From: Parcubacteria group bacterium Athens0714_12
Lineage (GTDB): Bacteria; Patescibacteriota; Patescibacteriia; UBA2591; VMGY01
Assembly (NCBI GenBank): GCA_007378955.1
Contig: VMGY01000012.1
Location: 1 to 37,788, forward strand
Length of the DNA: 37,788 bases
Direction: 5' to 3'
Shown: piece by piece, positions 20,928 to 37,690 of the stretch
How positions within the stretch are numbered: position 1 is the stretch's first letter
Layout: every line of letters begins with the position of its first letter
Position numbers and translations under genes: made by a program
Notes under the pieces: model-generated
What the model was told of the DNA's origin: nothing
What the model saw: the letters and a program-made list of their open reading frames with translations, nothing else
Databases searched by the model: none

Positions 20928-21161
20928 TTATCTCGCAGGTACTTCAAAAACAAACCTGCTTCCCTTGCCCTCGCCCGCGCTTTCCACCCAGATTTTTCCT
21001 TTGTGCGCTTCAATGTTTTTCTTGGCGATAAAAAGTCCCAGGCCGGAGCCGGTTTTGGAGATGTCAGGGATGATGGAGCCGCGCGTAAATTTGCCGAACA
21101 GTTTATCCAAATCGTCTTTTTTGATTCCGATGCCCGTGTCAGAAATGGAAAAATGGCAAAG
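20928..21161 (-). pseudogene. Histidine kinase 3'-end remnant B
   Basis: This minus-strand stretch encodes 'LCHFSISDTGIGIKKDDLDK' through 'TGSGLGLFIAKKNIEAH' to 'GSRFVFEVPAR' and a stop. It covers the G1 and G2 boxes of the ATPase domain of a kinase closely related to the intact copy at 24821-27001. Nucleotide identity breaks off at ATGGCAAAG. The frame stays open to a stop at 21234-21236, which is the stop of the unrelated ORF upstream. There is no sensor or HisKA part, so it cannot be a kinase alone. Confidence 0.85.
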
Positions 21162-21233
21162 CTTTTTTTTATTATTAATTAAATCGTCATTAGTCAAAAA
21201 AGATGTTTGCGGATTAATTTTTTTAAGCCTGAA

Positions 21234-21471
21234 TTACTGCGCCACCTCATCTATTAAATGAGCTTTAATAATCGCTTTATTGGACTCGTATAAATAACTT
21301 AAGGGGTAGTCTAAAATTTTAATATTTTCTTTTGGTTGTCTGTTTGTGTAACTAAAAACTTTATCTTTAATAAAACAAGTGGCTCGCCTGTCACAAGTTT
21401 TAAATTTACCAAACCACAATAAAACCATCTCGCAAATATTATCTTCGGAAATAATTTCAATTTCTATCGCT
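21234..21471 (-). pseudogene. Unrecognised partial coding sequence
   Basis: About 80 codons are open on the minus strand, with protein-like composition such as 'ICEMVLLWFGKFKTCDRRAT' and 'ILDYPLSYLYESNKAIIKAH'. The upstream part runs into the IS3 remnant in a different frame, so its own N-terminus is missing, unless translation starts at the internal ATG of EMVLLWF. I do not recognise the family. It lies in frame with, and one stop codon before, histidine kinase remnant B. Confidence 0.4.
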
Positions 21472-21825
21472 TCAGGTAGGTGACATGCACCTTTTTTTGG
21501 ACATCTTTTTCCACATAAACCGACCTTTAACGGCAAAGGCATAATGCTCTGACGGCGGCATTCCGATGGTTTGGATACGCCGGTTATTGCAATAATACAG
21601 TTGATGGTAAATTTTCTCAATCAATTGCCCTTTGCTTTCAAACCTGTTCAAATTTCCCAGTTCCAATTTAAAATTTGAATAGAACGATTCTTGATAGCTG
21701 TTTTCCCATGGGCTTGCTTTCTTGCTCATAGATATTGTAATACCCAGCTTTTTCAAGAAATCAGCATGCTCTTCGCTCTGATATTCGGAACCCTGGTCAC
21801 CTTTCACGCCGCTTGTGGCAAAGAT
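21472..21825 (-). pseudogene. IS3-family transposase OrfB, C-terminal remnant
   Basis: The frame encodes 'GDQGSEYQSEEHADFLKKLG', 'SMSKKASPWENSYQESFYSN' and 'LIEKIYHQLYYCNNRRIQT', the end of an IS150/IS3-type DDE integrase core including the second Asp (GDQGSEY) and the catalytic Glu (QES). The first two thirds are absent. No terminal repeats were found. It is a dead fragment that marks past insertion activity between the kinase remnants. Confidence 0.85.
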
Positions 21826-24820: not shown

Positions 24821-27001
24821 TTAAATCCCCACCTCAAAGCAGAATCTGCTCCCTTTGCCTTCGCCTTCGCTTTCCGCCCAGATTTTGCCGTTATGAGCTT
24901 CAATGTTTTTCTTGGCGATAAAAAGTCCCAAGCCGGAGCCGGTTTTAGAGATGTCCGGAATTATAGAACCGCGCGTAAATTTGCCGAACAGTTTATCCAA
25001 ATCGTCTTTTTTGATTCCGATGCCCGTGTCAGAAATGGAAAAATGGCAAAGATTATTTTCAAAATTTATTTCTATCGTAATTTTTCCCTTGTCGGTATAT
25101 TTAATGGCGTTATCCAATAAATTCAAAACCACGTCCTTTATTTTATCCCGGTCAACAAAAAGCAAATTGGATTTTGCCGCTTTTTTAAATTCCACTTTCA
25201 AATTCTTTTTATTTATGTCCGGCATAAATTCTTTGATGGTTTCTTCTATCAATTTATCCAAATCCACCTTGCTTTTTTCCAGGCTGAATTTTCCCATTTC
25301 AATGCGGGAAACATTAAGAAAAAGATTGACCAAACGGACTAATCTTTCCGTATTTTGCAGAAGGTCGCTGATGACTTCTGTTTTTTTCTCGTCAAGTTCG
25401 CCGAAATCGCCTTCCAAAAGCATTGATAAATAACCCTTTAAGCCGCTCAAAGGCGTTCTTAATTGATGGGAGGTGATGGAAATAAATTCTGTTTTTATTT
25501 GGTCCAATTTTTTCAATCTTTCATTGACTTTTTTTAAATCTTCCGTCGCTTTTTCCACTTCTAATTTTAATTTCTGGCTGAAATGATGCACTTCCTGATA
25601 AAGCTTCGCTTTTTCCAAAGCCGCGGCAAGCTGCGGCGACAAAACTTCAAAAAGGTTGATGTCTTCCTGCGCATACATATCGCCGGAAAGTTTTTTCCCT
25701 AAAAATAAAATTCCCGTTAATCTACCTTTGGTGAAAATAGGAGCGCAAAAAGCGGCGTTAAATTTTTCAAGGTCTGACTTTATTTTTTCCAATTCTTTTT
25801 TAACTTTACTGCCATTGCCGTCCGCGTCAATAATTTTTCTTTCCAGCTCGTCCGAGATAATTATTTCTTTATTTCTTTTCAAAAACTTAACCAAATAACT
25901 TTTTTGGTCAAAATCTATTATTTTTCTTCCGTTCAAATAATTTTCCTTCCTGAAAAATGATTTATTCTTGTCTGATAATAAAATATACGCTTCTTCAATT
26001 TTCAATTCTTTGGCAAGCGCGGATAAAAACTCGTCAAGCAAAGACTGCAAATCAAGCTCGTAAGAAATAATTTCGCTTAATTTTACTAAAATATCCTGAT
26101 AATTAATTCTGGCTTTAAAAAATATTTTGTCCGTTATTCTGCCCAAATATTTTTTTAAGGGGTCAAGGCTTAAAACGATAATTAAGGAAATAAGAAGAGT
26201 GATTAAAGTTTCATTAAAATCAGATAATTGATGCAAATACGTCACGGCTAAAAGACTGACAAAAGTAAACGCGCCCGCCACATAAACCACCAGCAAAGCG
26301 TAAAGCAAGCTCTTGCTAATCACCACCCGAATATCCATTAAGCGATATTTGACAATGGCGTAGGAAGTGAAGCCGATAAAAAATAAAAATCCGTAAATTC
26401 CTATTCTGAATAAACTCACAGGCAATATGTGCTGAAGAAAAAAATTTATTATTAAAGCCAAAAAAGCAGTCAAAGACAATCCTGTTAAAATATACAATGT
26501 TTGAAGTTTTTGAATTCCGTAACTTTTTTTATATTTAAAAATCAAATTCAAGCAACCTGTTCCGATGTAACCCAAAAGCGTTAAAATATAAAATATTGAT
26601 AATTTACCCCAAGAAAATTGTATTCTGCCTTGATAAAGTGTAATATTAGTGATAATTAAATCTGACAAAATAAAGATTGTAAGAATAACAATAGGAGAAA
26701 AGATTAAAAAAATTTTAATCTTTGAAAGGGTTAAATTAGGGCGATGAAAATAGAGGCAAAATAAAAGAAAAAAATAAGCGATTAATACGCCGGAAATAAA
26801 ATCTATTGTGAGAAATAAAATAGCCAATTCTAAATTAGTAATTTCGTTCTCCAAAAAATTACTGCTCATCCAAACCGCGGACCAAAATGTCAAAGCGCTA
26901 AAAAGCCGATTAATTCTATTTTGCCGACCTTTTAAATAAACTAAAAAACATAAAAATAGGTCGGCGGCCAAGATTAAAATAAATAAAAAATAACTTAGCA
27001 T
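24821..27001 (-). CDS. Histidine kinase with 7TM sensor and GAF domain
   Basis: The 726-residue protein begins with seven or eight hydrophobic segments over the first 260 residues, then a GAF-like region ('EEAYILLSDKNKSF', 'FCAPIFTKGRLTGILFLG'). A coiled linker leads to HisKA with the phosphoacceptor in 'FISITSHQLRTPLSGLKGYL' near residue 510. The HATPase has N box 'DVVLNLLDNAIKYTDKG', G1 'ISDTGIGI' and G2 'GSGLGLFIAK'. It is complete. No response regulator is adjacent; the receiver protein at 12087 is the only one in the window. Three truncated relatives of its 3' end lie to the left. It is divergent from the RaSEA-like gene. Confidence 0.93.
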   Translation of the reverse strand: MLSYFLFILILAADLFLCFLVYLKGRQNRINRLFSALTFWSAVWMSSNFLENEITNLELAILFLTIDFISGVLIAYFFLLFCLYFHRPNLTLSKIKIFLIFSPIVILTIFILSDLIITNITLYQGRIQFSWGKLSIFYILTLLGYIGTGCLNLIFKYKKSYGIQKLQTLYILTGLSLTAFLALIINFFLQHILPVSLFRIGIYGFLFFIGFTSYAIVKYRLMDIRVVISKSLLYALLVVYVAGAFTFVSLLAVTYLHQLSDFNETLITLLISLIIVLSLDPLKKYLGRITDKIFFKARINYQDILVKLSEIISYELDLQSLLDEFLSALAKELKIEEAYILLSDKNKSFFRKENYLNGRKIIDFDQKSYLVKFLKRNKEIIISDELERKIIDADGNGSKVKKELEKIKSDLEKFNAAFCAPIFTKGRLTGILFLGKKLSGDMYAQEDINLFEVLSPQLAAALEKAKLYQEVHHFSQKLKLEVEKATEDLKKVNERLKKLDQIKTEFISITSHQLRTPLSGLKGYLSMLLEGDFGELDEKKTEVISDLLQNTERLVRLVNLFLNVSRIEMGKFSLEKSKVDLDKLIEETIKEFMPDINKKNLKVEFKKAAKSNLLFVDRDKIKDVVLNLLDNAIKYTDKGKITIEINFENNLCHFSISDTGIGIKKDDLDKLFGKFTRGSIIPDISKTGSGLGLFIAKKNIEAHNGKIWAESEGEGKGSRFCFEVGI

Positions 27002-27094: not shown

Positions 27095-28170
27095 ATGGGT
27101 ATTCATTTATTAGTCAATCCAATAAAATGGGTGAAAAAAAATTTTGGCAAAAAAAGAACAGATTTTTTGATTAATCTAATCAGTGGTGGTGAAAATTTTT
27201 ATTATTTGGACAAAATTTACGATTCTCAGCAAAAAAGGCTTGTTAAACGATTAACGTTATTATTACCCGGTAAAGGGTGCAGTTGGGCAAAAATATCAGG
27301 TGGCTGTTCAATGTGCGGCTTTCCAAGCAAAGTAAAAGAGATAGGAAAAAAATTTTCTGCCGATGATTTAATAGGTCTTTACAAAATAGCGGAATTAATG
27401 ACTATTGAAGAAAGGCCTGAGAATTTAACCATTTACAACGCGGGCAGTTTTCTAAATGATGAAGAAATTTCGCCAAAGGCCCAAATAGAAATAACTAATT
27501 TAGTCAAAAAACATCCTTCTATTAAATTATTATTTATAGAATCTCGCGCGGAATTTGTTACTAGCCAAAAAATAAAAAAATTAACTTCTCTTTTGGAAAA
27601 TAAAAAATTGGAAGTAGGTATTGGTTTAGAAGCAGTTAATGAAAAAGTAAGAAATAAATTTATTAATAAAGGATTATCTTTAAAAACATACGAGGAAGCG
27701 ATAAAAACTCTTAAAAAAAACAAAGCTTTATCTTCAACTTATGTTTTCATTAAACCGTTATATCTAAATGAATGGGAAGCAATAGAAGAAGCAATAATAA
27801 CCGCTGAATATGCCCATAAAACAGGGTCGGATAAAATTAATTTTGAAGCGGCTTTTGTGCAAAAAGGCACATTATTAGCCGCGTTTTATGAAAAAGGAGA
27901 ATTCCGTCCGCCGTGGCTTTGGAGCATTCGTGGCTTTGGAGCATTATTGAAGTATTAAAAAGAACTCATCATCTCAATAATATTCAAATCGGCAATTTCA
28001 ACGATGAACCCCCGCCTATCGCTATCCCCCACAACTGCCCGAAATGTTCGTCTCAAATTGAAAAAATTATCCGGCAATACAGAGAAACGAATAATATCCA
28101 TCTTTTTGACGAGCTTGATTGCGAATGCAAGGAGGAATGGAAAAAAATTATTGCTAAATATATTGACTAA
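27095..28170 (+). pseudogene. RaSEA/TIGR01210-like radical SAM gene, frameshifted
   Basis: The cluster motif is CSWAKISGGCSMC (Cx8CxxC, residues 62-74), the Elp3-like spacing of the archaeosine-synthase radical SAM family. 'NLTIYNAGSFLNDEEI' and 'FIESRAEF' are further family marks. The frame is broken by a 17-bp tandem duplication (27912-27945). As it stands, translation stops at 27958 after 287 residues. Removing one copy restores 352 residues with a C-terminal Cys-rich part (NCPKCSS, DCECKEEW). A truncated second copy at 31842-32035 lacks the duplication. It is unknown whether the bacterial protein acts on tRNA. Confidence 0.82.
27912..27945 (+). repeat. 17-bp tandem duplication
   Basis: CGTGGCTTTGGAGCATT occurs twice in a row (27912-27928 and 27929-27945). 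It shifts the reading frame of the radical SAM gene. The remaining gap 28171-28351 is AT-rich and shows no feature I can name. Confidence 0.95.
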
Positions 28171-28351: not shown

Positions 28352-28885
28352 TCACATCAAATCTTTTAACCCAAATTCCATTAACTTCTTTTTCATTAAT
28401 TCATTAACTCTTTTCTCGTTTTCTTTATGATCTAATGCCTCATGATGAACAGATAAAAGATGAACTATCTCATGAACTAAAACACGTTTCCACCAGTGGT
28501 CGTTTTGAAAATTGGTTATTCTTATAAAAACAGTGGATAATTCAGGGTAATAACTGCCACCAGGTCCAAATGGAATTAGGGCAACATTATAGATACTTGG
28601 TTCTTGCACCCCTAAATCCTTTGCTAAGGATTCGGCAAATTTTCCACCCATTTTTTTCCACCATTTTTCAATTTCAAAAGCGAGTTTTCTCGCCTCTTTC
28701 GGCCAAGTTGATTTCTCCCAAAAACGTTTAGCGGCTTCTTTGTAAGTTTCATTGTCATCTTTTTTGATTGGTAAATTTGGATTCAACCCCCATTTTTTAT
28801 AATTCCCGTTTTCAAAATTCCTTATAGTTTTATTTAAATCTATTAAAGTTTGATCAAGAGAAACTATTATTTGAATATTTTTCAT
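28352..28885 (-). CDS. Putative metalloprotease with HEIVH motif
   Basis: From the methionine at 28885 (MKNIQIIVSLDQ) the protein has 177 residues; a longer frame to 28933 adds 16 unlikely residues. The zinc-binding motif is in 'VLVHEIVHLLSVHHEALDHK', an HExxH with a possible third ligand in the later HHE or HKE. No signal peptide or membrane segment is seen, so it is cytoplasmic. It is unrelated in sequence to the other HExxH protein at 32123. It lies next to a Cys-rich RiPP precursor locus and might cut leader peptides, though a strong terminator separates them. Confidence 0.6.
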   Translation of the reverse strand: MKNIQIIVSLDQTLIDLNKTIRNFENGNYKKWGLNPNLPIKKDDNETYKEAAKRFWEKSTWPKEARKLAFEIEKWWKKMGGKFAESLAKDLGVQEPSIYNVALIPFGPGGSYYPELSTVFIRITNFQNDHWWKRVLVHEIVHLLSVHHEALDHKENEKRVNELMKKKLMEFGLKDLM

Positions 28886-28923
28886 ATTTATAAATATAAT
28901 CAATTTTTTAAAATAAGTAAAGG

Positions 28924-28957
28924 AAAAGGGCAATATTTAAAAAATATTGCCCTTTTT
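28924..28957 (-). terminator. Terminator after the first Cys-rich precursor
   Basis: AAAAGGGCAATATT and AATATTGCCCTTTT form a perfect 14-bp stem around a 6-nt loop. It can work on both strands and ends the operon 30288-28987. Confidence 0.88.
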
Positions 28958-28986: not shown

Positions 28987-29190
28987 TTATCTTCCATCAT
29001 CGCAGTCTGAAATTCCGCAATCCCCTTCGCAATCACACTGTCCGCCGCCATGCCCGTTGTCACACTGCGAACAAACGCAATCTCGTCCTCCTTCATCTTG
29101 GCAGATGGAATTTTCTTGAATTATTGCATTATGTGTTGCTTGAATATGGGACCCTTTTAAATTTTCAAGAAAACTAATAAGCTCTCTCAT
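28987..29190 (-). CDS. Cys-rich RiPP precursor peptide, 67 residues
   Basis: The start at 29190 is set by AAGGAGGTG just upstream; a longer frame lacks support. The N-terminal part (MRELISFLENLKGSHIQ) looks like a helical leader. The C-terminal half holds eight Cys in a Gly/Asp-rich context: ICQDEGGRDCVCSQC, then GQCDCEGDC, then SDCDDGR. There is no signal peptide. It follows the radical SAM/SPASM gene, and thioether or similar links made by that enzyme are the natural expectation. Metal binding (metallothionein-like) is an alternative. The acidic end resembles that of the second precursor at 32876. Confidence 0.78.
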   Translation of the reverse strand: MRELISFLENLKGSHIQATHNAIIQENSICQDEGGRDCVCSQCDNGHGGGQCDCEGDCGISDCDDGR

Positions 29191-29212
29191 AACTATCACC
29201 TCCTTATTAAAA

Positions 29213-30288
29213 TTAGAATTTGTTTTTTTGAGAAGCAAATTCTTTTTGATAACTCATAAAATCTTCGGGATCTCTACTGCTCCAGAATGCAATGCAACCA
29301 CCCTTACAAATTCCCCAGTAGTCACAATCAACACACCCTTTAGATCTTGCTACCGATGCCTTATTTCTAAGTTCGTACATCTGAGAAGAATTCCAAAATG
29401 TTAAGAATTTATCTCTTGAAGAAAATAATTCATTCGTTTCTTGATAATCAGTAATAGGAAAATCAGCAAAATGAGTGCAAAGGCATAGAGAATTATCACT
29501 AGAAATGACAAATCCTCCGCCATACTGAAGTTGACAAATATACCTAATCAACCTCTGAGTGATTAGTTCATCTATAAATTTTCTAGGAAAGTTACAGAAA
29601 GGGACTGTAAGCAAAAAACTCACCTTAATCCCGTATAACTTTACTATTTTATGTATCTCTTGGCAACTTTCAGAAATTTGTTCAGGGGTCAAAACCTCTT
29701 TATCTATAATAGTGCCATTTTTAGAAAGAACTGGGGCAGCGATATTACAGATAGTCCATTTTACTGAATTTCTCTTTATAAAATCTAAAATTTCCTTTAA
29801 ATTATTATAAAGAGTCCGACCCAATGTTATCTCAAACGACACTTTTATACCGGCTTCAATAATATTAGCAAGAGCTATTTCAAGACACTCAAACGCATCA
29901 TTTTTTGTATTATCCAGATAAGATTTTTTTGACCAGCCGTGCAAAGAAATGGTTAAATTTTCTAATCCTGCTTTTAGACAATTTTGAGTAAATTTTTTGT
30001 CAGCAAATTTTAAACCATTTGTAACTAATGCTAAATTCAATCCCTCTTGCTCAATAAGAGAAACAAATTCAGTGAAAGCTGGGTGAAGAGTTGGTTCACC
30101 GCCAATTAAAATACATCTTTGCAAGCCAACTTCTTTTATAGTTGGAAAAAAAATTTAGCAAAAACATCAAAATTTAAATGACGAATCTGCCCAAGACCAC
30201 TTAGGGATCTATAGCACCAAATGCATCTATTCTGACAAGCATCTGATAACGATAACCAAAAAACTTTTGGTTTTACTTCTGTATTCAT
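29213..30288 (-). CDS. Radical SAM/SPASM maturase, frameshifted at poly-A
   Basis: The true start is the ATG at 30288 after AAAGGAGGTT. The first frame encodes 'VFWLSLSDACQNRCIWCYRS' with the cluster cysteines at residues 18, 22 and 25, then hits a stop. The rest, from 'CILIGGEPTLHP' to the SPASM end 'GCVDCDYWGICKGGCIAFW', is in another frame. The shift lies at a run of eight A on the plus strand (30146-30153). Removing two or adding one restores about 357 residues. It could be a sequencing error, a real mutation or programmed slippage. The Cys-rich precursor follows 22 bp later. Promoter and leader motif are at 30315-30382. Confidence 0.85.
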
Positions 30289-30314
30289 CTTTAACCTCCT
30301 TTTTTATTTTGTTT

Positions 30315-30382
30315 AATTTTCAATGAACTTTCACCCTCCTTTTGTTTTTCTTTTATTATATGTACTTTCTCTAAAAAGTCAA
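30315..30382 (-). promoter_or_regulatory. Promoter and boxA-like leader of RiPP locus 2
   Basis: On the minus strand TTGACT (30377-30382), 16 bp and TATAAT (30355-30360) form a near-consensus promoter. The leader carries GGAGGGTGAAAG, then AAAGTTCATTGAAAATT (30315-30331). The -35 to spacer sequence TTTGACTTTTTAGAGAAA is shared with the promoter at 34460-34487. The stretch 30383-30496 shows nothing else I can name. Confidence 0.8.
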
Positions 30383-30496
30383 ACTTTGGGAATAATTATC
30401 GCATGGATTTTTATCGATTCTATTATTAAATAAATATTAGAATCTTTAAATCCTGATTGGGTAAGCAGGTTTTTGATTTTAATTTATAATTTATTT

Positions 30497-31453
30497 TTAT
30501 TCATTAACAAAGGGTTTTCCCATTCCCATCATATGAAAGCCGAGGGGTTCGGTAAATTGTCCCTTCCATTGATAACCCGCGTTTTCATAAATTTTCTTTA
30601 AATCTGCTTCGTCTTTAAAAAACATTTCCCAGTCAGCCGCCCATTTCATAAGATAATAAGTAAATGGATCTTCTGCTCCCATCTTTTTTGTGGCAGTACT
30701 CGCGATAATAACCCCATCTTCTTTTAAAAATTTTTTAATTTTTTGGAGGACAACCACGCTATTTTCTATATTTAACGGACAAATAATACCAATAAGCAAA
30801 ATAATATCAAATTTCTTTTCTGTTTCATATTTTAAAAAGCTCTCTTTAACAAATTCAATATGCTGGCCAACTCCCATATTCATCGCCATTCTTTTTCCTC
30901 TTTTTAAAGAATTTACATCTTTATCAATATGAATTGCTTTTATATTGCCATTGTTATGGCAAGAAGATAAAACATTAATTACATCCCTTCCCGGCCCAGA
31001 ACCGAAATTACCAATTAATATCTTACCGTTTTTCCGGCTATATTCATTGATTATTTTATTAAGCTGTTCTTTTATGGTTATTAATCTGCTTTTCAACGCC
31101 CGCCCTGCTTCGCACTGTAAAAAATAATTATCAATTAATGAAGGCGAAGCCAATCCATCATAAAGAAATTCAGTGGTTACGGAAGTTCCATAATTTGCCA
31201 CGGTAGCTGACAATATCACGCTATTATTAATAAAATAATTAAAAGCATATTCTTCATCTTCCTTGGATACGGGCAATCCTTTAAAATCTTTTATCAAAAA
31301 ATCTTTTACTTTAGCTTCTCCTTTTTTTTCTAAAGCATTAAATAAGCAAATGGCCGCGTCGCTAAAACCTTGGTATTTATTTTCTTCGAATTTTTTTTGC
31401 TTGATAAATTTTTGGAATAAATTTTGCAACAAAGAATTCATATTATTTTTCAT
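30497..31453 (-). CDS. Class I SAM-dependent methyltransferase
   Basis: This 318-residue protein has an N-terminal helical domain of about 130 residues. The methyltransferase fold follows: 'GKILIGNFGSGPGRDVINVL' (SAM motif), 'IKAIHIDKDVNSLKRGKRM' (acidic end of the second strand) and 'KFDIILLIGIICPL'. The substrate is unknown. A helical N-terminal dimerisation domain is common in O-methyltransferases acting on small molecules. It lies between two RiPP-like loci but has its own orientation unit, starting just after the terminator of the repeated 382-bp element. It could modify a peptide product; this is inference. Confidence 0.8.
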   Translation of the reverse strand: MKNNMNSLLQNLFQKFIKQKKFEENKYQGFSDAAICLFNALEKKGEAKVKDFLIKDFKGLPVSKEDEEYAFNYFINNSVILSATVANYGTSVTTEFLYDGLASPSLIDNYFLQCEAGRALKSRLITIKEQLNKIINEYSRKNGKILIGNFGSGPGRDVINVLSSCHNNGNIKAIHIDKDVNSLKRGKRMAMNMGVGQHIEFVKESFLKYETEKKFDIILLIGIICPLNIENSVVVLQKIKKFLKEDGVIIASTATKKMGAEDPFTYYLMKWAADWEMFFKDEADLKKIYENAGYQWKGQFTEPLGFHMMGMGKPFVNE

Positions 31454-31454
31454 A

Positions 31455-31836
31455 TAATAAAAAAATCACCGAAAAAGGTGATTATTAAATTAAATAAATT
31501 ATTTGATTTTGATTGTTGTTCTTGGCATTGCTCCCGCAACCAACATTCAAAAACATCTCTCCCAATCCCTTTGTTTCAGCCAAACTCGCCCATTTTTCCC
31601 GACTATTCTTCATTTTGCCGTTCAATTCTTCTTTCAGCCATTTCAGAAATACATCAAATACGCCTCCCTTGTTGAATCCGCGACTGCGTCTCTCCGCCGC
31701 GGCTGTGCAAAAAACAAAAAACCCTTCGTTCGCCTCCTTGTCTAAGCTTTCGCTTATTAGGCATATTTTTTAGATTAACTGCTTTTAGCATAGCATATCT
31801 TTCCGCTTTTGGCAAATGAAAATTTATGGTATAGTT
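31455..31836. repeat. 382-bp dispersed repeat, copy 1
   Basis: Copy 1 is homologous over its full length to 35200-35581, with scattered substitutions and a few 1-bp indels. Boundaries are sharp: TAATAAAAAAATCACC at one end and GGTATAGTT at the other. It contains no consistent reading frame. On the plus strand its far end is fused to a radical SAM gene remnant. Confidence 0.9.
31459..31780 (-). ncRNA. Candidate structured ncRNA, copy 1
   Basis: A promoter TTGCCA (31810-31815), 17 bp, TATGCT (31787-31792) faces left. A terminator AATCACC..GGTGATT with a T tract lies at its end (31464-31483). Between them are a GNRA-type hairpin TAAGCGAAAGCTTA (31743-31756), a stem GAACGAA/TTTGTTT and a GC-rich CCGCG..CGCGG hairpin. 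All three are kept in copy 2, with pairing preserved through G-U changes. Confidence 0.55.
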
Positions 31837-31841
31837 TATCA

Positions 31842-32035
31842 CATAAAACAGAAACAGATAAAATTAATTTTGAAGCGGCTTTTGTGCAAAAAGGCACATT
31901 ATTAGCCGCGTTTTATGAAAAAGGAGAATTCCGTCCGCCGTGGCTTTGGAGCATTAACAATACAGGGAAACGAATAATATCCATCTTTTTGACGAGCTTG
32001 ATTGCGAGTGTAAGGAGGAATGGAGAAAAAAGAAA
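31842..32035 (+). pseudogene. 3' remnant of a RaSEA-like radical SAM gene
   Basis: The plus strand matches the gene at 27095-28170 almost base for base from CATAAAACAG through the 'PPWLWSI' codons, then after an internal deletion of roughly 130 bp from AATACAG to GAGGAATGGA. It has no start and is fused to copy 1 of the 382-bp repeat. It carries only one copy of the 17-bp unit that is doubled in the longer gene, so it preserves the ancestral form at that site. The flanking 32036-32122 shows nothing more. Confidence 0.88.
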
Positions 32036-32122
32036 TAGATTTCTACATTATTATCTAATTAAATCTGCTAATCAAAATTCTATCAATCTTTTTCTTATTA
32101 ATCCATTAACTCTCTTTTCCTT

Positions 32123-32800
32123 TTACGAATCAACATTTTTTATTAAATGTTTAATATTTTTATCTTTTCGCCAAAGACCAATAATTTGATTTCTTAAATC
32201 CTTATGCTCTTTATATCCATAATCTGGCCTTGATAAAATTCCTTCAAACTCTTCGTTTAGCAAAACCGTTAAAGATTCTCTCAAATCATTAAATCGTTTT
32301 TGCGGCAATCCTAAATCTTTACAGAAAAAACCGTATGCGCGCACAAATTCTATGTGCATAATTTCATGAGCCGCTATCGCGTCAACTTTTTCATCTTTAA
32401 TCCTTACCATAAACCATCCTTCAGGCACATTAAAAGGGCAACTGCCGGCATTAGTAAGATAGGCGGTATAAATATTATTTTTTGGTATAGTGATATTCAA
32501 TACAAAAGACAGTTTATCAAAATAAGTATTGTTAATTTTATTCCACTCTTGACTAAAGGATTTGATTTTACCTTTTATTAATTTTTTCTCCTTTTCTAAA
32601 AAATTAGCAAGGTAATTTTTAATAATTTGTTTTTTTATTAATAAATCTTTTTCTTTTTTAACTTTTTCCACCAGACTCTTATCTATGCCAATTAAACACT
32701 TTGATTTATCTTCTTTATCAAAAAAAGGGGGTGTATCAATAACCCTTAAAATATTCCACCCGTCTTTAGAAATATCATATTTAAATTCAACTTTTGGCAT
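32123..32800 (-). CDS. Putative metallopeptidase with HEIMH motif
   Basis: The 225-residue protein has no signal peptide. The zinc motif is in 'VDAIAAHEIMHIEFVRAYG', followed some 20 residues later by 'FNDLRESLTVLLNEEFEGIL', which could supply a glutamate ligand. Upstream 'FNVPEGWFMVRI' is not a motif I know. The family is not recognised. It is immediately downstream of the second Cys-rich precursor on the same strand, 76 bp after its stop, with a strong terminator between. It may process the leader of that peptide, but this rests on position only. Confidence 0.62.
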   Translation of the reverse strand: MPKVEFKYDISKDGWNILRVIDTPPFFDKEDKSKCLIGIDKSLVEKVKKEKDLLIKKQIIKNYLANFLEKEKKLIKGKIKSFSQEWNKINNTYFDKLSFVLNITIPKNNIYTAYLTNAGSCPFNVPEGWFMVRIKDEKVDAIAAHEIMHIEFVRAYGFFCKDLGLPQKRFNDLRESLTVLLNEEFEGILSRPDYGYKEHKDLRNQIIGLWRKDKNIKHLIKNVDS

Positions 32801-32842
32801 AGTTAAATTATATATTATGTTTATAAAAAAGACAATTTAAAA

Positions 32843-32870
32843 GGCACCTGTCTATATTTTGACAGGTGCC
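32843..32870 (-). terminator. Terminator after the second Cys-rich precursor
   Basis: GGCACCTGTC and GACAGGTGCC form a perfect 10-bp stem with an 8-nt loop; a short T run follows on the minus strand. It lies 5 bp after the precursor stop. Confidence 0.85.
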
Positions 32871-32875
32871 AATTT

Positions 32876-33034
32876 TTATTTGCTATCATCACAAGTACTC
32901 CTATCACAATAACATGATTCGCCATAACACTCGCAAGGATCGCCGGGATTATAACACTCATCACATCCACCATTAAGCACTTTTTGATGATTTCCGGTAC
33001 TTTTTTCGATTACGGAAAGAATTTCTGGGTTCAT
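32876..33034 (-). CDS. Cys-rich RiPP precursor peptide, 52 residues
   Basis: The peptide was found by reading the gap after the radical SAM gene. GGAGGAGG lies 3-4 bases before the ATG. The first 20 residues (MNPEILSVIEKSTGNHQKVL) look like a leader. The core then holds seven Cys, mostly as CxxC or CxC pairs: GGCDECYNPGDPCECYGESC, then YC and DRSTCDDSK. A terminator follows directly. It starts 14 bp after the stop of a radical SAM/SPASM enzyme that carries a peptide-recognition domain. The CxC pairs and acidic tail resemble the precursor at 28987-29190. Confidence 0.8.
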   Translation of the reverse strand: MNPEILSVIEKSTGNHQKVLNGGCDECYNPGDPCECYGESCYCDRSTCDDSK

Positions 33035-33048
33035 ATCCTCCTCCTTTT

Positions 33049-34365
33049 TTATATTTTGATTCGACTTATAACTTTTCTTTTAACTATAGATGCAATAAAT
33101 TTTGACAATTTTTCAGTATCAATATCTACTCTTTTTAATAAATCATCCATTGTAAAATCTTTCAATAGATTAATTGTCTGTAATATTTTGTAGCCATCGT
33201 GATTGACTAAAATTGCTCCTGAAAGAGTAGCCGACACAATAGCGCCAAAATCTTCTTCGCGAAATCTTAAATTATCTTGTAATACATACTTATCTCCGGG
33301 GTTTAAATTATCAATAGAATGATTGATGGGTGAAGTTGAATCAATAATTATCTCGTTTTGACTTGTCATATACGGATCTTTGCCGCAAATATCACCTAAA
33401 TATTTAGCCTCCATTCTGCATCCTCCACTACAAAAATCAATAAACTTGCATCTCTTACATTCAATTGGTATATACTTACCATCTCTCCAATCTGACATTT
33501 TTTCCCAAATATCAATTAAATCTTCTTTAAAAATATTTCCGTAAATCATATCGGAATGAGAGCATGGCCTTATTTCTCCCGCTGAGCTGATCGTACAGGT
33601 TGTAATGCCTGCTGTACAACTTCTACGCGCAAAATGAAAAAATCTATGCAAATCTCCTATTAAACAAAGGGGGTAACATTCTAGAATATCAACACTTAAA
33701 TTCAATTCTTTTTTAATTTTTTCAAGTAAATTTAAACTTTCTTTCACTTGACTCCTTGTCGGACGTAAATCGTTAAAATTACGATTATTTAATGCTGGAG
33801 ACGCTTTAGTTACCGAGAATAATTGCACACCTATGCTCTTTAAAAATTTTGCGGTTTCATATATGCAATCAAAATTTTGTTTTAGCAAAACCATATTGGC
33901 GCTAACCCTTATTCCTTCTGAAACAGCTACTTTTATACCTTTAATTGTTTGCTGCCACGAACCCTGATGATTGGAAATCTTGTCATGAATTTTTTCACTA
34001 GTTGACAAAACTGAAACTAAAACCGATTTTAACCCACTATTTCTTAATGATCTTGCTTTTTCTTTTTCTAATAAAATAAGATTAGAATTTAAGCTTACTT
34101 GTATCCCACTTAAAGATAATTTACTAATAGCAGAAAGCAAATCTTCCCAAAAAATTAATGGCTCGCCGCCTGTTAGGGTCACCGAAAATATCTTATTATC
34201 TATAAGCTTATTGACAATAAAAAGTAAGTCTTTTTCTGTAAGTGATTTAAAATCTTTCTTTGTGTTTTCACGCCAATGGTTATAGCAATATGTACAATTA
34301 TTATTGCAAAGTTCTGTTATTTCAATCTGTGTAGAAATTGGTGCTCTTAATTTTCTGTATTTCAT
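33049..34365 (-). CDS. Radical SAM/SPASM maturase with C-terminal PqqD-like domain
   Basis: The protein has 438 residues. The cluster motif CNNNCTYC lies at residues 20-27, and TLTGGEP follows. SPASM cysteines are in 'CTAGITTCTISSAGEIRPC' and 'ECKRCKFIDFCSGGC'. The last 75 residues ('DNLRFREEDFGAIVSATLSG' to 'SKFIASIVKRKVI') look like a PqqD-type winged helix, the leader-recognition element (RRE) of RiPP enzymes, here fused at the C-terminus. AAAGGAGG precedes the ATG, and the Cys-rich precursor follows after 14 bp. The promoter and leader motif are at 34420-34487. This is the most complete RiPP enzyme in the window. Confidence 0.9.
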   Translation of the reverse strand: MKYRKLRAPISTQIEITELCNNNCTYCYNHWRENTKKDFKSLTEKDLLFIVNKLIDNKIFSVTLTGGEPLIFWEDLLSAISKLSLSGIQVSLNSNLILLEKEKARSLRNSGLKSVLVSVLSTSEKIHDKISNHQGSWQQTIKGIKVAVSEGIRVSANMVLLKQNFDCIYETAKFLKSIGVQLFSVTKASPALNNRNFNDLRPTRSQVKESLNLLEKIKKELNLSVDILECYPLCLIGDLHRFFHFARRSCTAGITTCTISSAGEIRPCSHSDMIYGNIFKEDLIDIWEKMSDWRDGKYIPIECKRCKFIDFCSGGCRMEAKYLGDICGKDPYMTSQNEIIIDSTSPINHSIDNLNPGDKYVLQDNLRFREEDFGAIVSATLSGAILVNHDGYKILQTINLLKDFTMDDLLKRVDIDTEKLSKFIASIVKRKVISRIKI

Positions 34366-34419
34366 GATACGCCTCCTTTTTTGATTTTTTCAATATTAAT
34401 TCTCTCACCAAATTACTTA

Positions 34420-34487
34420 AATTTTCAATGAACGATTTTTTCCTTCTTTTTACTTTTTAAGTATACTTATTTTCTCTAAAAAGTCAA
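34420..34487 (-). promoter_or_regulatory. Promoter and boxA-like leader of RiPP locus 3
   Basis: On the minus strand TTGACT (34482-34487), 16 bp and TATACT (34460-34465) form the promoter. GTTCATTGAAAATT (34420-34433) lies in the leader. The -35 region TTTGACTTTTTAGAGAAA is identical to the promoter at 30355-30382. Confidence 0.8.
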
Positions 34488-34501
34488 ATTTTTTTATAAT
34501 T

Positions 34502-35194
34502 TTACCCGATTTTAAAAATCCTCGCTCCCAGCCAGCGATACCACTTATTGTAAAAAGGATTTTCCCAAACGAGAAGAACTCCGTAATTCAAACTTTCCGA
34601 GTCATTGAAATAGTCAGGCATAATTTTTACAATTTTCAAATCAGCTTTCTTGTAAAAATTAATTTCGGGATCCAATGGCTTTATTCCATTTTTTGTTTTA
34701 ACAGTTGCCTTAACATATTCATCCACAGACATTTTATCGGCAAATTTATGGTAATCAGGAATCCTGCCGCCCAAAACGCCATATTTTAAATTTCTGGCAA
34801 TGCATAACTTAGCTATATTTTCTAATAATCGAGTGCCTGTTTTACAAGGAGCGGAAGGTAAAACGCTTAAATCAACTCCGTATATACTGTCCCCATTCGG
34901 CTTATGGCTATTTTTTATAAAGCCATTGTCGGTAACTTCATACCAATTTAAACTGCTATTATTAATAATATCCGAATAATTTACTTTTTCCACTGCCACC
35001 ACTCCCACAATTTTATCATAATCTTTTATAGCCACTAAAACTCCTTGGGGAAATGTTTTTAATCGGGATTCAAATTGTTCTTTGGTCGCCGCCTTTTCTC
35101 CCCAAGCTTCTTTTTCAACAAATAAAATACCATTAATATCATCAATAGTCGCTTGACGAATTTTCACTTTTTCTAAATTTTTCTTTTTAAACAT
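34502..35194 (-). CDS. GNAT-family N-acetyltransferase
   Basis: This 230-residue protein begins 'VKIRQATIDDINGILFVEKE', the usual GNAT opening, and continues 'GVLVAIKDYDKIVGVVAVEK'. The acetyl-CoA loop region is 'YGVDLSVLPSAPCKTGTRLL', where the canonical R/QxxGxG/A is replaced by PCKTGT. The C-terminal part is longer than in minimal GNATs. The acceptor is unknown. It lies upstream of the radical SAM locus on the same strand, 15 bp from that locus's promoter. Its start is directly after the terminator of repeat copy 2, the same arrangement as the methyltransferase after copy 1. Confidence 0.8.
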   Translation of the reverse strand: MFKKKNLEKVKIRQATIDDINGILFVEKEAWGEKAATKEQFESRLKTFPQGVLVAIKDYDKIVGVVAVEKVNYSDIINNSSLNWYEVTDNGFIKNSHKPNGDSIYGVDLSVLPSAPCKTGTRLLENIAKLCIARNLKYGVLGGRIPDYHKFADKMSVDEYVKATVKTKNGIKPLDPEINFYKKADLKIVKIMPDYFNDSESLNYGVLLVWENPFYNKWYRWLGARIFKIG

Positions 35195-35199
35195 TATTT

Positions 35200-35581
35200 T
35201 AATAAAAAAATCACCTAAAAAAGGTGATTATTAAATTGAATAAATTATTTGATTTTGATTATTGTTCTTGGCATTGCTCCCGCAACCAACGCTCAAAAAC
35301 ATCTCTCCCAATCCCTCTGTTTCAGCCAAACCCGCCCATTCTTCCCAATTATTCTTTATCTTGCCGATTAATTCTTTTTTCAGCCATTCAAGAAATACAT
35401 CAAATACGCCCTTCCTGTTAACTCCGCGACTGCGTCTCTCCGCCGCGGCAGGCAAAGAACAAAAAACCCTTTGTTCGCCTCCTTGGCTAAGCTTTCGCTT
35501 ATTAGGCATATTTTTTAGATTAACTGCTTTTAGCATAGCATATTTTTTATCTTTTGGCAAACGAAAATTTGTGGTATAGTT
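35200..35581. repeat. 382-bp dispersed repeat, copy 2
   Basis: It is homologous over its full length to 31455-31836. A minus-strand frame of 109 codons is open here but is shifted in copy 1. In the stretch I aligned, most codon differences change the amino acid, so the frame is not conserved as protein. A divergent TATAGT on the plus strand may serve the gene at 35608. Confidence 0.9.
35204..35525 (-). ncRNA. Candidate structured ncRNA, copy 2
   Basis: The promoter TTGCCA (35555-35560), 17 bp, TATGCT (35532-35537) and the terminator AATCACC..GGTGATT with a T tract (35204-35229) match copy 1. Internal hairpins are TAAGC-GAAA-GCTTA (35488-35501), GAACAAA/TTTGTTC and CCGCG..CGCGG. The predicted RNA is about 322 nt. 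It does not resemble tmRNA, RNase P or 6S RNA by the motifs I know. Confidence 0.55.
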
Positions 35582-35607: not shown

Positions 35608-36432
35608 ATGAAAATAGACCAAAATATAATCAAAAATATTTTAACAACTATAAATTACGTCTCGCATAAACACAGATCTCCCTATATACTAAACCTACAA
35701 AAACAAAAGCAAGACCTTTTTATTTACGGCTGTGAACATTCCAATAATTATAAAGAAAAAAAATTTAAAAAAATAGAACAATTATACCGTAAATTTTTGG
35801 ATAAATATGGCAAAAAAGAAACATTAATAATTATTGAGGGGAGTATCCCCGATAAAAATTACCTCATAAAAAAAATGGTAAGCAAATACAGAGAAAGTGG
35901 TTTTATGTATAAATTAGCTCTTAGAAATAGCGTTAAAAAAATTTCCGTGGAACCAACTTTAAAGGAAATAAAAAGTTTTGTTTTAAGCCGGCGACATAAA
36001 AAAATAGATATCCTTGCATGGATATTCTGCAACATATTAGTAAATAAATTAAAAATTAGTAAAAAAATAACCACTAAAGATATCAATAATTTTAAAAAGC
36101 TTATTAAAACGTTTCTAAATAATGACAAAAATATTTATAAAAAAGTAGCTGATAGAATTAATCATTTTGGCGGAGAAAACATTCTACCCGAAAGTATTTA
36201 TTCATTAAAAAAAAATAATCTTAACTTAAGATTATTAAAAAAAATAGAAAACCCTTTTATTAATAATACGCCTATAAATTTAGTAGGGGCTGATTTTAAC
36301 TTGGCGAGAGATTATTTTATGGCAAAAAAAATTTTATATTTACTAGAAAAAAAGAAAAATATTTTTGGCGTTTTAGGATTAAACCATCTCGTTTCACAAA
36401 CATCAGCGATAAAAAAATATTTTTTAAAATAA
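35608..36432 (+). CDS. Hypothetical protein, possibly EreA/ChaN/TraB-like fold
   Basis: The 274-residue basic protein is not firmly recognised. Short conserved-looking strands are 'DLFIYGCEHSNNY' near residue 40, 'ETLIIIEGSIPD' near residue 75 and 'IFGVLGLNHLVSQTS' near the end. An EH, a later acidic residue and a terminal H on strand ends recall the erythromycin-esterase/ChaN/TraB superfamily of putative hydrolases or haem-binding proteins; this is only an impression. There is no signal peptide. It is the only plus-strand gene in the 28-37 kb block apart from remnants. It is expressed from the promoter at the edge of the 382-bp repeat and ends at a terminator shared with the graspetide precursor. 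Confidence 0.6.
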   Translation: MKIDQNIIKNILTTINYVSHKHRSPYILNLQKQKQDLFIYGCEHSNNYKEKKFKKIEQLYRKFLDKYGKKETLIIIEGSIPDKNYLIKKMVSKYRESGFMYKLALRNSVKKISVEPTLKEIKSFVLSRRHKKIDILAWIFCNILVNKLKISKKITTKDINNFKKLIKTFLNNDKNIYKKVADRINHFGGENILPESIYSLKKNNLNLRLLKKIENPFINNTPINLVGADFNLARDYFMAKKILYLLEKKKNIFGVLGLNHLVSQTSAIKKYFLK

Positions 36433-36474: not shown

Positions 36475-36609
36475 TTAATCGTCATCACAAGGGCATACTC
36501 CCCAAGTGACACAATCCCTCGCCTGATCACTGCCATTTTCTATTTTAATAGAATCGGGCAGAATCAGGGCGAAATCAAGAAAAAACGGCCTTTCAAGATT
36601 TTTTTCCAT
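36475..36609 (-). CDS. Graspetide-like precursor peptide, 44 residues
   Basis: The peptide was found by reading the gap after the ATP-grasp gene. The start at 36609 follows AAAGGAGGGAAAG. The leader is MEKNLERPFFLDFALILPDS; RPFFLDF resembles the PFFARFL leader helix that microviridin ATP-grasp enzymes recognise. The core region is 'DQARDCVTWGVCPCDDD', with one Thr and several Asp suitable for ester or amide macrocycles and three Cys that are unusual for graspetides. There is no TxKxPSD core. The start overlaps the ATP-grasp 3' end by 17 bp and a terminator follows. Confidence 0.8.
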   Translation of the reverse strand: MEKNLERPFFLDFALILPDSIKIENGSDQARDCVTWGVCPCDDD

Positions 36610-37627
36610 TACCTTTCCCTCCTTTTTTTGATAATTTTATTAAAACTTCCGCAAATGCTTTGGAAATAGGTAAATTTGTCATGTGTTCTAACCAGCCCCA
36701 TTGTCCATTAGGATTATCTTCCAAAAAAACTATTTTATCATCTGGCGTCATAATCAAATCAATAACACCAAAAGTTAATCTAAAGCTTTTTGTAAAAGAT
36801 ATTAATTTTTTATTAATTGTTTTTCCTAAATCAATTGGTTTATGCGGCATTTCTTTTAATTTACCCATAACTGCGGCTTTTCTATAATCCACCACTCCTT
36901 CTGCAATATTTTGGGAATAAATAGCAACAGAAAACACCTGGTTGTCGACCACTACGGAACGAATATCAAATTTCTTTGGAATATGTTGCTGTAGAAACAT
37001 CGGGCAAAAACGCATTCTCTTTAGATGAATATCGTCCATCGCGTCTTTTGGTATTTTAGTTGTATGAACTAAATATCTTTTGCCATCCTTAAATTGAAAC
37101 AATCCTTTCCTAATCTTTTTAAAAATTACTTCTCGATCAGCCTCCTCCCAAAATTTTTTTATCGCTTCTAAATTATCGGTGATGCAAGTTAAAGGTATCT
37201 CCAAGTCAAAAGAAGCAGCTCTTTCCATTTGTATCATTTTATTAAACTTTAAACGCTCGTTAATTTCCCAGGGATTGGCTACAGGGCACCGCAACATAGT
37301 AAAAGAAATATTCATTGCCCATTCTGATTCGTCAATCATCCAATTTTTTAAATCTGGTTCGTGATCTAATTCGAAACCAATATTAGGTTTATGAATCCGC
37401 CTATTCCAAACTACACCGATTTCTTCAAATTCAAGATCGCGATCAGGAAATTGATATTTTCCAAAAAAATTTCCTTTCTTGTCTAAACGCATAATTACTT
37501 TTATCTTTGAGTGAAATTCATCTGTGTTAAATCTAATAAAATCCAATCTTCTTTTTACCAAATGTTCTATAACAAGCTGCGCGCAATCATCCTGAGAATG
37601 TGTAAGTATTAATATCTTTTTATTCAT
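36593..37627 (-). CDS. MvdD-like ATP-grasp peptide ligase (graspetide synthetase)
   Basis: The start is placed at 37627 after AGGAGG (344 residues); a longer frame lacks support. 'MNKKILILTHSQDDCAQLVI' and 'IGVVWNRRIHKP' are N-terminal marks of MvdC/MvdD-type enzymes. The ATP-grasp core shows 'REVIFKKIRKG', 'FLQQHIPKKFDIRSVVV' and 'GVIDLIMTPDDKIVFLEDNP' with NGQW, giving the metal-binding D and ExN residues. These enzymes use ATP to form ester or amide side-chain links in precursor peptides. The PFF-containing precursor overlaps its 3' end. Only one ligase is present, so a single bond type is expected. The upstream leader carries the shared motif at 37666-37690. Confidence 0.9.
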   Translation of the reverse strand: MNKKILILTHSQDDCAQLVIEHLVKRRLDFIRFNTDEFHSKIKVIMRLDKKGNFFGKYQFPDRDLEFEEIGVVWNRRIHKPNIGFELDHEPDLKNWMIDESEWAMNISFTMLRCPVANPWEINERLKFNKMIQMERAASFDLEIPLTCITDNLEAIKKFWEEADREVIFKKIRKGLFQFKDGKRYLVHTTKIPKDAMDDIHLKRMRFCPMFLQQHIPKKFDIRSVVVDNQVFSVAIYSQNIAEGVVDYRKAAVMGKLKEMPHKPIDLGKTINKKLISFTKSFRLTFGVIDLIMTPDDKIVFLEDNPNGQWGWLEHMTNLPISKAFAEVLIKLSKKGGKGNGKKS

Positions 37628-37665
37628 TACTGTTGCCTCCTCTATTTTATTGATTTTTATTTTCA

Positions 37666-37690
37666 AATTTTCAACGAACTTTCACCCTCC
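37666..37690 (-). promoter_or_regulatory. boxA-like leader motif of the graspetide locus
   Basis: On the minus strand GGAGGGTGAAAG runs into GAAAGTTCGTTGAAAATT. It matches 30315-30339 over 25 bases with one difference. It is 40 bp before the start at 37627. No strong -35/-10 pair was seen for this strand. Confidence 0.7.

Follow-up and report, generated by a model that had tools for sequence, protein, structure and literature searches.

The window analysed here, a 37,788-nt stretch that is an entire contig of the 827-kb genome of Parcubacteria group bacterium Athens0714_12, carries a peptide cluster in which an element of 382 bases occurs twice, at 31455..31836 (copy 1) and 35200..35581 (copy 2). 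The two copies, which are the only ones in the genome, form a direct repeat on the minus strand with 91% identity over 383 columns (E 8e-152), and 26 of the 35 aligned columns at which they differ are transitions. The original prediction, which described a duplicated 382-bp element just upstream of a minus-strand enzyme gene in each instance, is correct on both counts. Copy 1 precedes a methyltransferase of 318 aa (30497..31453, minus; PF13847, 7e-12), and copy 2 a GNAT-like acetyltransferase of 230 aa (34502..35194, minus), which takes its name from a sequence pattern and from the original prediction, a Pfam search with this protein having returned no match. Alignments with GNAT homologues in five other genomes of the class begin at residues 5-12, which places the start codon within about 30 nt of 35194. 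The second cassette also encodes a radical SAM/SPASM peptide maturase (33049..34365, minus; PF04055 1e-27, SPASM 5e-7). Graspetide clusters are known in bacteria of the Candidate Phyla Radiation (CPR), to which the present genome probably belongs as judged by size and genes, and the available portion of that report (PMC8939145) describes graspetide/radical SAM clusters with the same ingredients—MvdC/D-like ATP-grasp proteins, SPASM radical SAM proteins, short peptide genes and a very small genome—so that the present peptide cluster is of a known kind. A shared leader element, unlike here, is not described in that portion of the report (PMC8939145).

Sites resembling transcription signals bound the element on both sides. 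The promoter scan identified TTGCCA-17-TATGCT, with a TG before the -10 hexamer, at 31787..31815 in copy 1, and the same promoter-like site lies at 35532..35560 in copy 2, both on the minus strand; the copies differ at four positions in this stretch, all of them within the spacer, and have identical hexamers. At the other end stands an intrinsic terminator, also on the minus strand, which in copy 2 consists of AATCACCT/AGGTGATT and a T tail (35209..35229) and ends 14 nt short of the start codon of the GNAT gene; its counterpart in copy 1 (31464..31483) leaves 10 nt to the start codon of the methyltransferase gene. Both the 17-bp-spaced promoter and the T-tailed terminator that had been predicted are therefore found in each copy. 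Taken singly, promoter-like and terminator-like sites are barely more frequent in this AT-rich DNA than in its shuffles (57 versus 46 and 9 versus 5.3, respectively), which means that the weight of these sites rests on their conservation and placement. Placement is the same in both copies: a promoter, then a leader, then an intrinsic terminator that immediately precedes a start codon on the same strand. Between the element promoter and that start codon, a minus-strand scan detected no further promoter site in either copy, and the sole other promoter-like site upstream on this strand, at 35633, is weak and overlaps a divergent gene. This implies that transcription reaches the enzyme genes, unless they are silent, by way of the element and past its terminator. 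Homology between the copies extends from the promoter as far as the terminator and is lost at the unrelated open reading frames, a pattern that a shared control region would produce. A well-spaced Shine-Dalgarno sequence is absent between terminator and start codon in both enzyme genes; AGGTGAT, in the 3' arm of the copy 2 terminator, is Shine-Dalgarno-like as read from the sequence and rather distant from the start codons. In another genome of the class, a stretch similar to the element promoter precedes an open reading frame, and neither of the two GNAT homologues whose upstream regions were inspected has such a leader. The arrangement lends good support to a predicted unit in which a promoter is followed by some 300 transcribed bases and by a terminator through which polymerase would have to read for enzyme expression. 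We give an even chance to the reading that the element is a promoter plus a transcribed 5' leader whose leaky terminator attenuates the two tailoring genes.

There are signs of local structure in the predicted transcript. Its 5' domain (35399..35515 in copy 2 and 31653..31770 in copy 1, minus) is predicted to fold into a 10-bp closing helix with GAAA, GAACAAA/TTTGTTC and CCGCGGC/GTCGCGG hairpins, and a long hairpin follows towards the 3' end of copy 2 (approximately 35245..35320, minus). In folding windows that were picked after inspection of the fold, the 5' domain has z-scores of -3.5 (copy 2) and -3.7 (copy 1) and beats 299 of 300 shuffles in each copy, and the 3' hairpin has a z-score of -5.0 in copy 2 and of -2.3 in the homologous stretch of copy 1; the whole RNA reaches -2.7 and -1.0 in the two copies. 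A structure set by hand for the 5' domain has 29 pairs, all of which are kept in both copies, three of them with one-sided changes. Two details that had been pointed out before hold exactly: the GNRA-type hairpin TAAGC-GAAA-GCTTA is invariant, and the stem GAACAAA/TTTGTTC versus GAACGAA/TTTGTTT keeps its pairing through G-U. These two G-U changes are nevertheless one-sided, and random mutation yields them about as well. Among trials of random mutation with the same spectrum, 36 of 150 attained the consensus energy and 71 of 150 the energy of copy 1, while 6 of 60 reached the shared pair probability, and tests of broken pairs against random controls gave P values of 0.07-0.7. There is no two-sided compensatory change between the two copies, and their substitutions show no significant preservation of structure. 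Evidence for RNA structure in the element is therefore suggestive only. The original prediction of a new structured RNA gene stands as regards a predicted transcribed unit with local structure and without a relative in Rfam, but is not borne out as regards a free-standing gene. A trans-acting small RNA with its own promoter and terminator would explain the promoter-RNA-terminator unit, the fold z-scores and the fact that both copies are intact as RNA. However, the terminator abuts the next start codon and leaves the next gene no room for a promoter, which makes a 5' leader the simpler explanation, and the lack of covariation between the copies, of copies elsewhere and of an Rfam match even at relaxed thresholds also speaks against such a gene, which we regard as very improbable.

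Copy 2 also contains a long open frame, a point absent from the original prediction. This frame of 109 aa (35231..35560, minus), which may encode a small protein, ends with a stop codon 1 nt before the terminator stem. Only 0.15% of shuffles contain a frame as long (P = 0.0015; the P value for the copy 1 frame is 0.23), and its codon score of 0.06 bits per codon is close to the median for fragments of real genes and equals the 95th percentile for wrong frames. Copy 2 is the only one of the two to combine a longer-than-chance frame with gene-like codons. A gene for a small protein or precursor peptide of about 90-109 aa, followed by a leaky terminator that lowers expression of the enzyme, with copy 1 as its frameshifted pseudogene, would account for these properties and would suit the setting in a peptide cluster. 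Against it, the reading frame is not conserved, as had been noted before: a 1-nt difference near 35452 breaks it between the copies, which share no common frame with an excess of synonymous change, and substitutions in the C-terminal part are evenly spread over the three codon positions (8/7/8). No Shine-Dalgarno sequence precedes a usable start of the copy 2 frame, protein searches found no relative in 58 related genomes, 379 genomes of the phylum or viral contigs, and no Pfam, NCBIfam or PHROG family matches it. A single-sequence structure model of its putative product is uninformative (pLDDT 47), and a DusA-like hit of the copy 1 frame, weak at E 0.035, was taken as chance. On balance, we consider a functional small-protein gene rather unlikely, although a long frame with gene-like codons that ends just before a terminator may reflect a peptide gene that has decayed or is very local in occurrence.

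How widespread is the element? At the DNA level, its own genome, 58 relatives and 380 genomes of the class yielded short chance matches instead of a third copy, and a degenerate DNA pattern run against GTDB contigs hit two unrelated MAGs named as proteobacterial genera, which is about the chance number. Viral contigs, phages and plasmids contain no copy either. The search for further copies that the original prediction had proposed, which in all covered about 400 related genomes, GTDB and viral, phage and plasmid sequences, has therefore left the count at two. A covariance model of the 5' domain found one weak match (24 bits) in 58 + 285 genomes, which lies inside an apparent glycosyltransferase gene and is at chance level. 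The prediction that the RNA would fit no known family also holds, the Rfam check having returned no match in the region; at relaxed thresholds, the best sub-threshold hits (E 0.5-0.9) are far below the gathering threshold. Known RNA genes are thereby rejected as the identity of the element, the two tRNAs of the window lying elsewhere. A mobile element was rejected as well because there are no terminal inverted repeats, no transposase was seen and there are no other copies.

The surroundings of the pair point to its origin. Only 5 nt separate the end of copy 1 from a duplicated tail (31842..32030, plus) of the plus-strand radical SAM gene at 27815-28147, which lies 4 kb from its original and has lost about 128 nt internally (96% identity over 114 nt and 95% over 73 nt). 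Besides the element and this radical SAM tail, the two cassettes share only the ends of genes near 28356/32058 and the radical SAM promoter regions (30277-30387 versus 34353-34492, about 77%). The enzymes between these shared parts are barely or not related, and the radical SAM proteins are 23% identical. Since the homology breaks off at the gene borders on either side and copy 1 lies against a duplicated gene tail, the pair was probably produced by cassette duplication or exchange, whether through tandem duplication followed by replacement or through import from a relative. The restriction of homology to control regions and gene ends suggests that control regions were kept while coding cassettes were exchanged or replaced. 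The same facts might be read differently, the element being a passenger without a present role, either a gene that has decayed or a mobile element, carried along with the duplicated or exchanged peptide cassettes. That both copies lie in one duplicated cluster, that copy 1 adjoins a truncated gene remnant and that the substitutions look neutral would fit such a passenger. Its boundaries, however, are a promoter and a terminator, hexamers, hairpin and terminator are kept, and terminal repeats or a transposase were not seen, which makes a passive role quite improbable in our view.

We therefore return to the attenuating leader. The element most likely controls how often transcription continues into the enzyme gene, which would be control of a familiar kind exerted by an unfamiliar sequence. 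We infer that RNA polymerase would start just after TATGCT and transcribe a leader of about 300-320 nt, and that transcription would mostly halt at the intrinsic terminator, which lies 10-14 nt ahead of the enzyme start codon; the fraction that reads through would then express the methyltransferase behind copy 1 and the acetyltransferase behind copy 2. Switching between two folds is conceivable, because in both copies an upstream GGGAUU can pair with the 5' arm of the terminator, AAUC(A)CC, which on paper would form an antiterminator. When the transcript is folded without the 3' arm, the 5' arm of the terminator pairs with GGGAUU, with a probability at the CC end of about 0.8 in copy 2 and 0.98 in copy 1. 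Leaders that attenuate transcription include riboswitch, T-box and leader-peptide types. Like these, the element has a promoter, a structured leader (100-300 nt in known ones), a terminator immediately before the first start codon and possibly a competing antiterminator. Unlike these, it has no Rfam match, is present as two copies in one genome, and no ligand, tRNA or conserved leader peptide was identified for it. In peptide-bacteriocin operons, the precursor gene comes first and a partial terminator precedes the enzyme genes. The element resembles this layout in its short upstream transcribed unit, its terminator, the modification enzyme on the same strand and the setting in a peptide cluster, and departs from it in that its open frame is without family or relative and is broken in copy 1. 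A bolder proposal, that the element represents a new structured class of cis-acting RNA that controls peptide-tailoring enzymes in CPR bacteria and is kept while the cassettes behind it are exchanged, is in our opinion decidedly improbable, and with only two copies an RNA family is not yet definable. Should the element be an attenuating leader, it would be a concrete instance in which ultra-small uncultured bacteria control their modified-peptide genes at the RNA level, with a control region retained while the enzyme genes behind it are swapped. In the accessible part of a paper on Patescibacteria, riboswitches are mentioned solely as tools to be developed (PMC11665869).

Several other features of the cluster deserve mention. 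The upstream regions of the two radical SAM genes (30277-30387 and 34353-34492, minus) have TTGACTTTTTAGAGAAA promoters in common, and GTTC(A/G)TTGAAAATT before the start is common to all three peptide operons (30277-30387, 34353-34492 and 37654-37690, minus); these upstream regions amount to a second shared control sequence of the peptide cluster. A frameshift close to eight consecutive T residues divides the radical SAM gene of cassette 1 (29213-30290, minus), with the junction near 30125-30145, so that the N-terminal part with CQNRCIWC is in a different frame from the rest, which could be explained by a pseudogene, slippage or an assembly error. Short Cys/Asp-rich open frames at 32876-33034, 28987-29238 and 36500-36610 (minus), beside radical SAM/ATP-grasp genes, are likely peptide precursors. 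Two proteins of the HExxH type are encoded at 28352-28933 (HEIVH) and 32123-32800 (HEIMH), both on the minus strand, one of which has a weak match, below the cut-off, to the LiaK/YydH epipeptide metalloprotease (E 0.0013). Finally, 20928-21807 (minus) is a fragment closely similar to the C-terminus of the histidine kinase encoded at 24821-27001, and is adjoined by transposase-like fragments.
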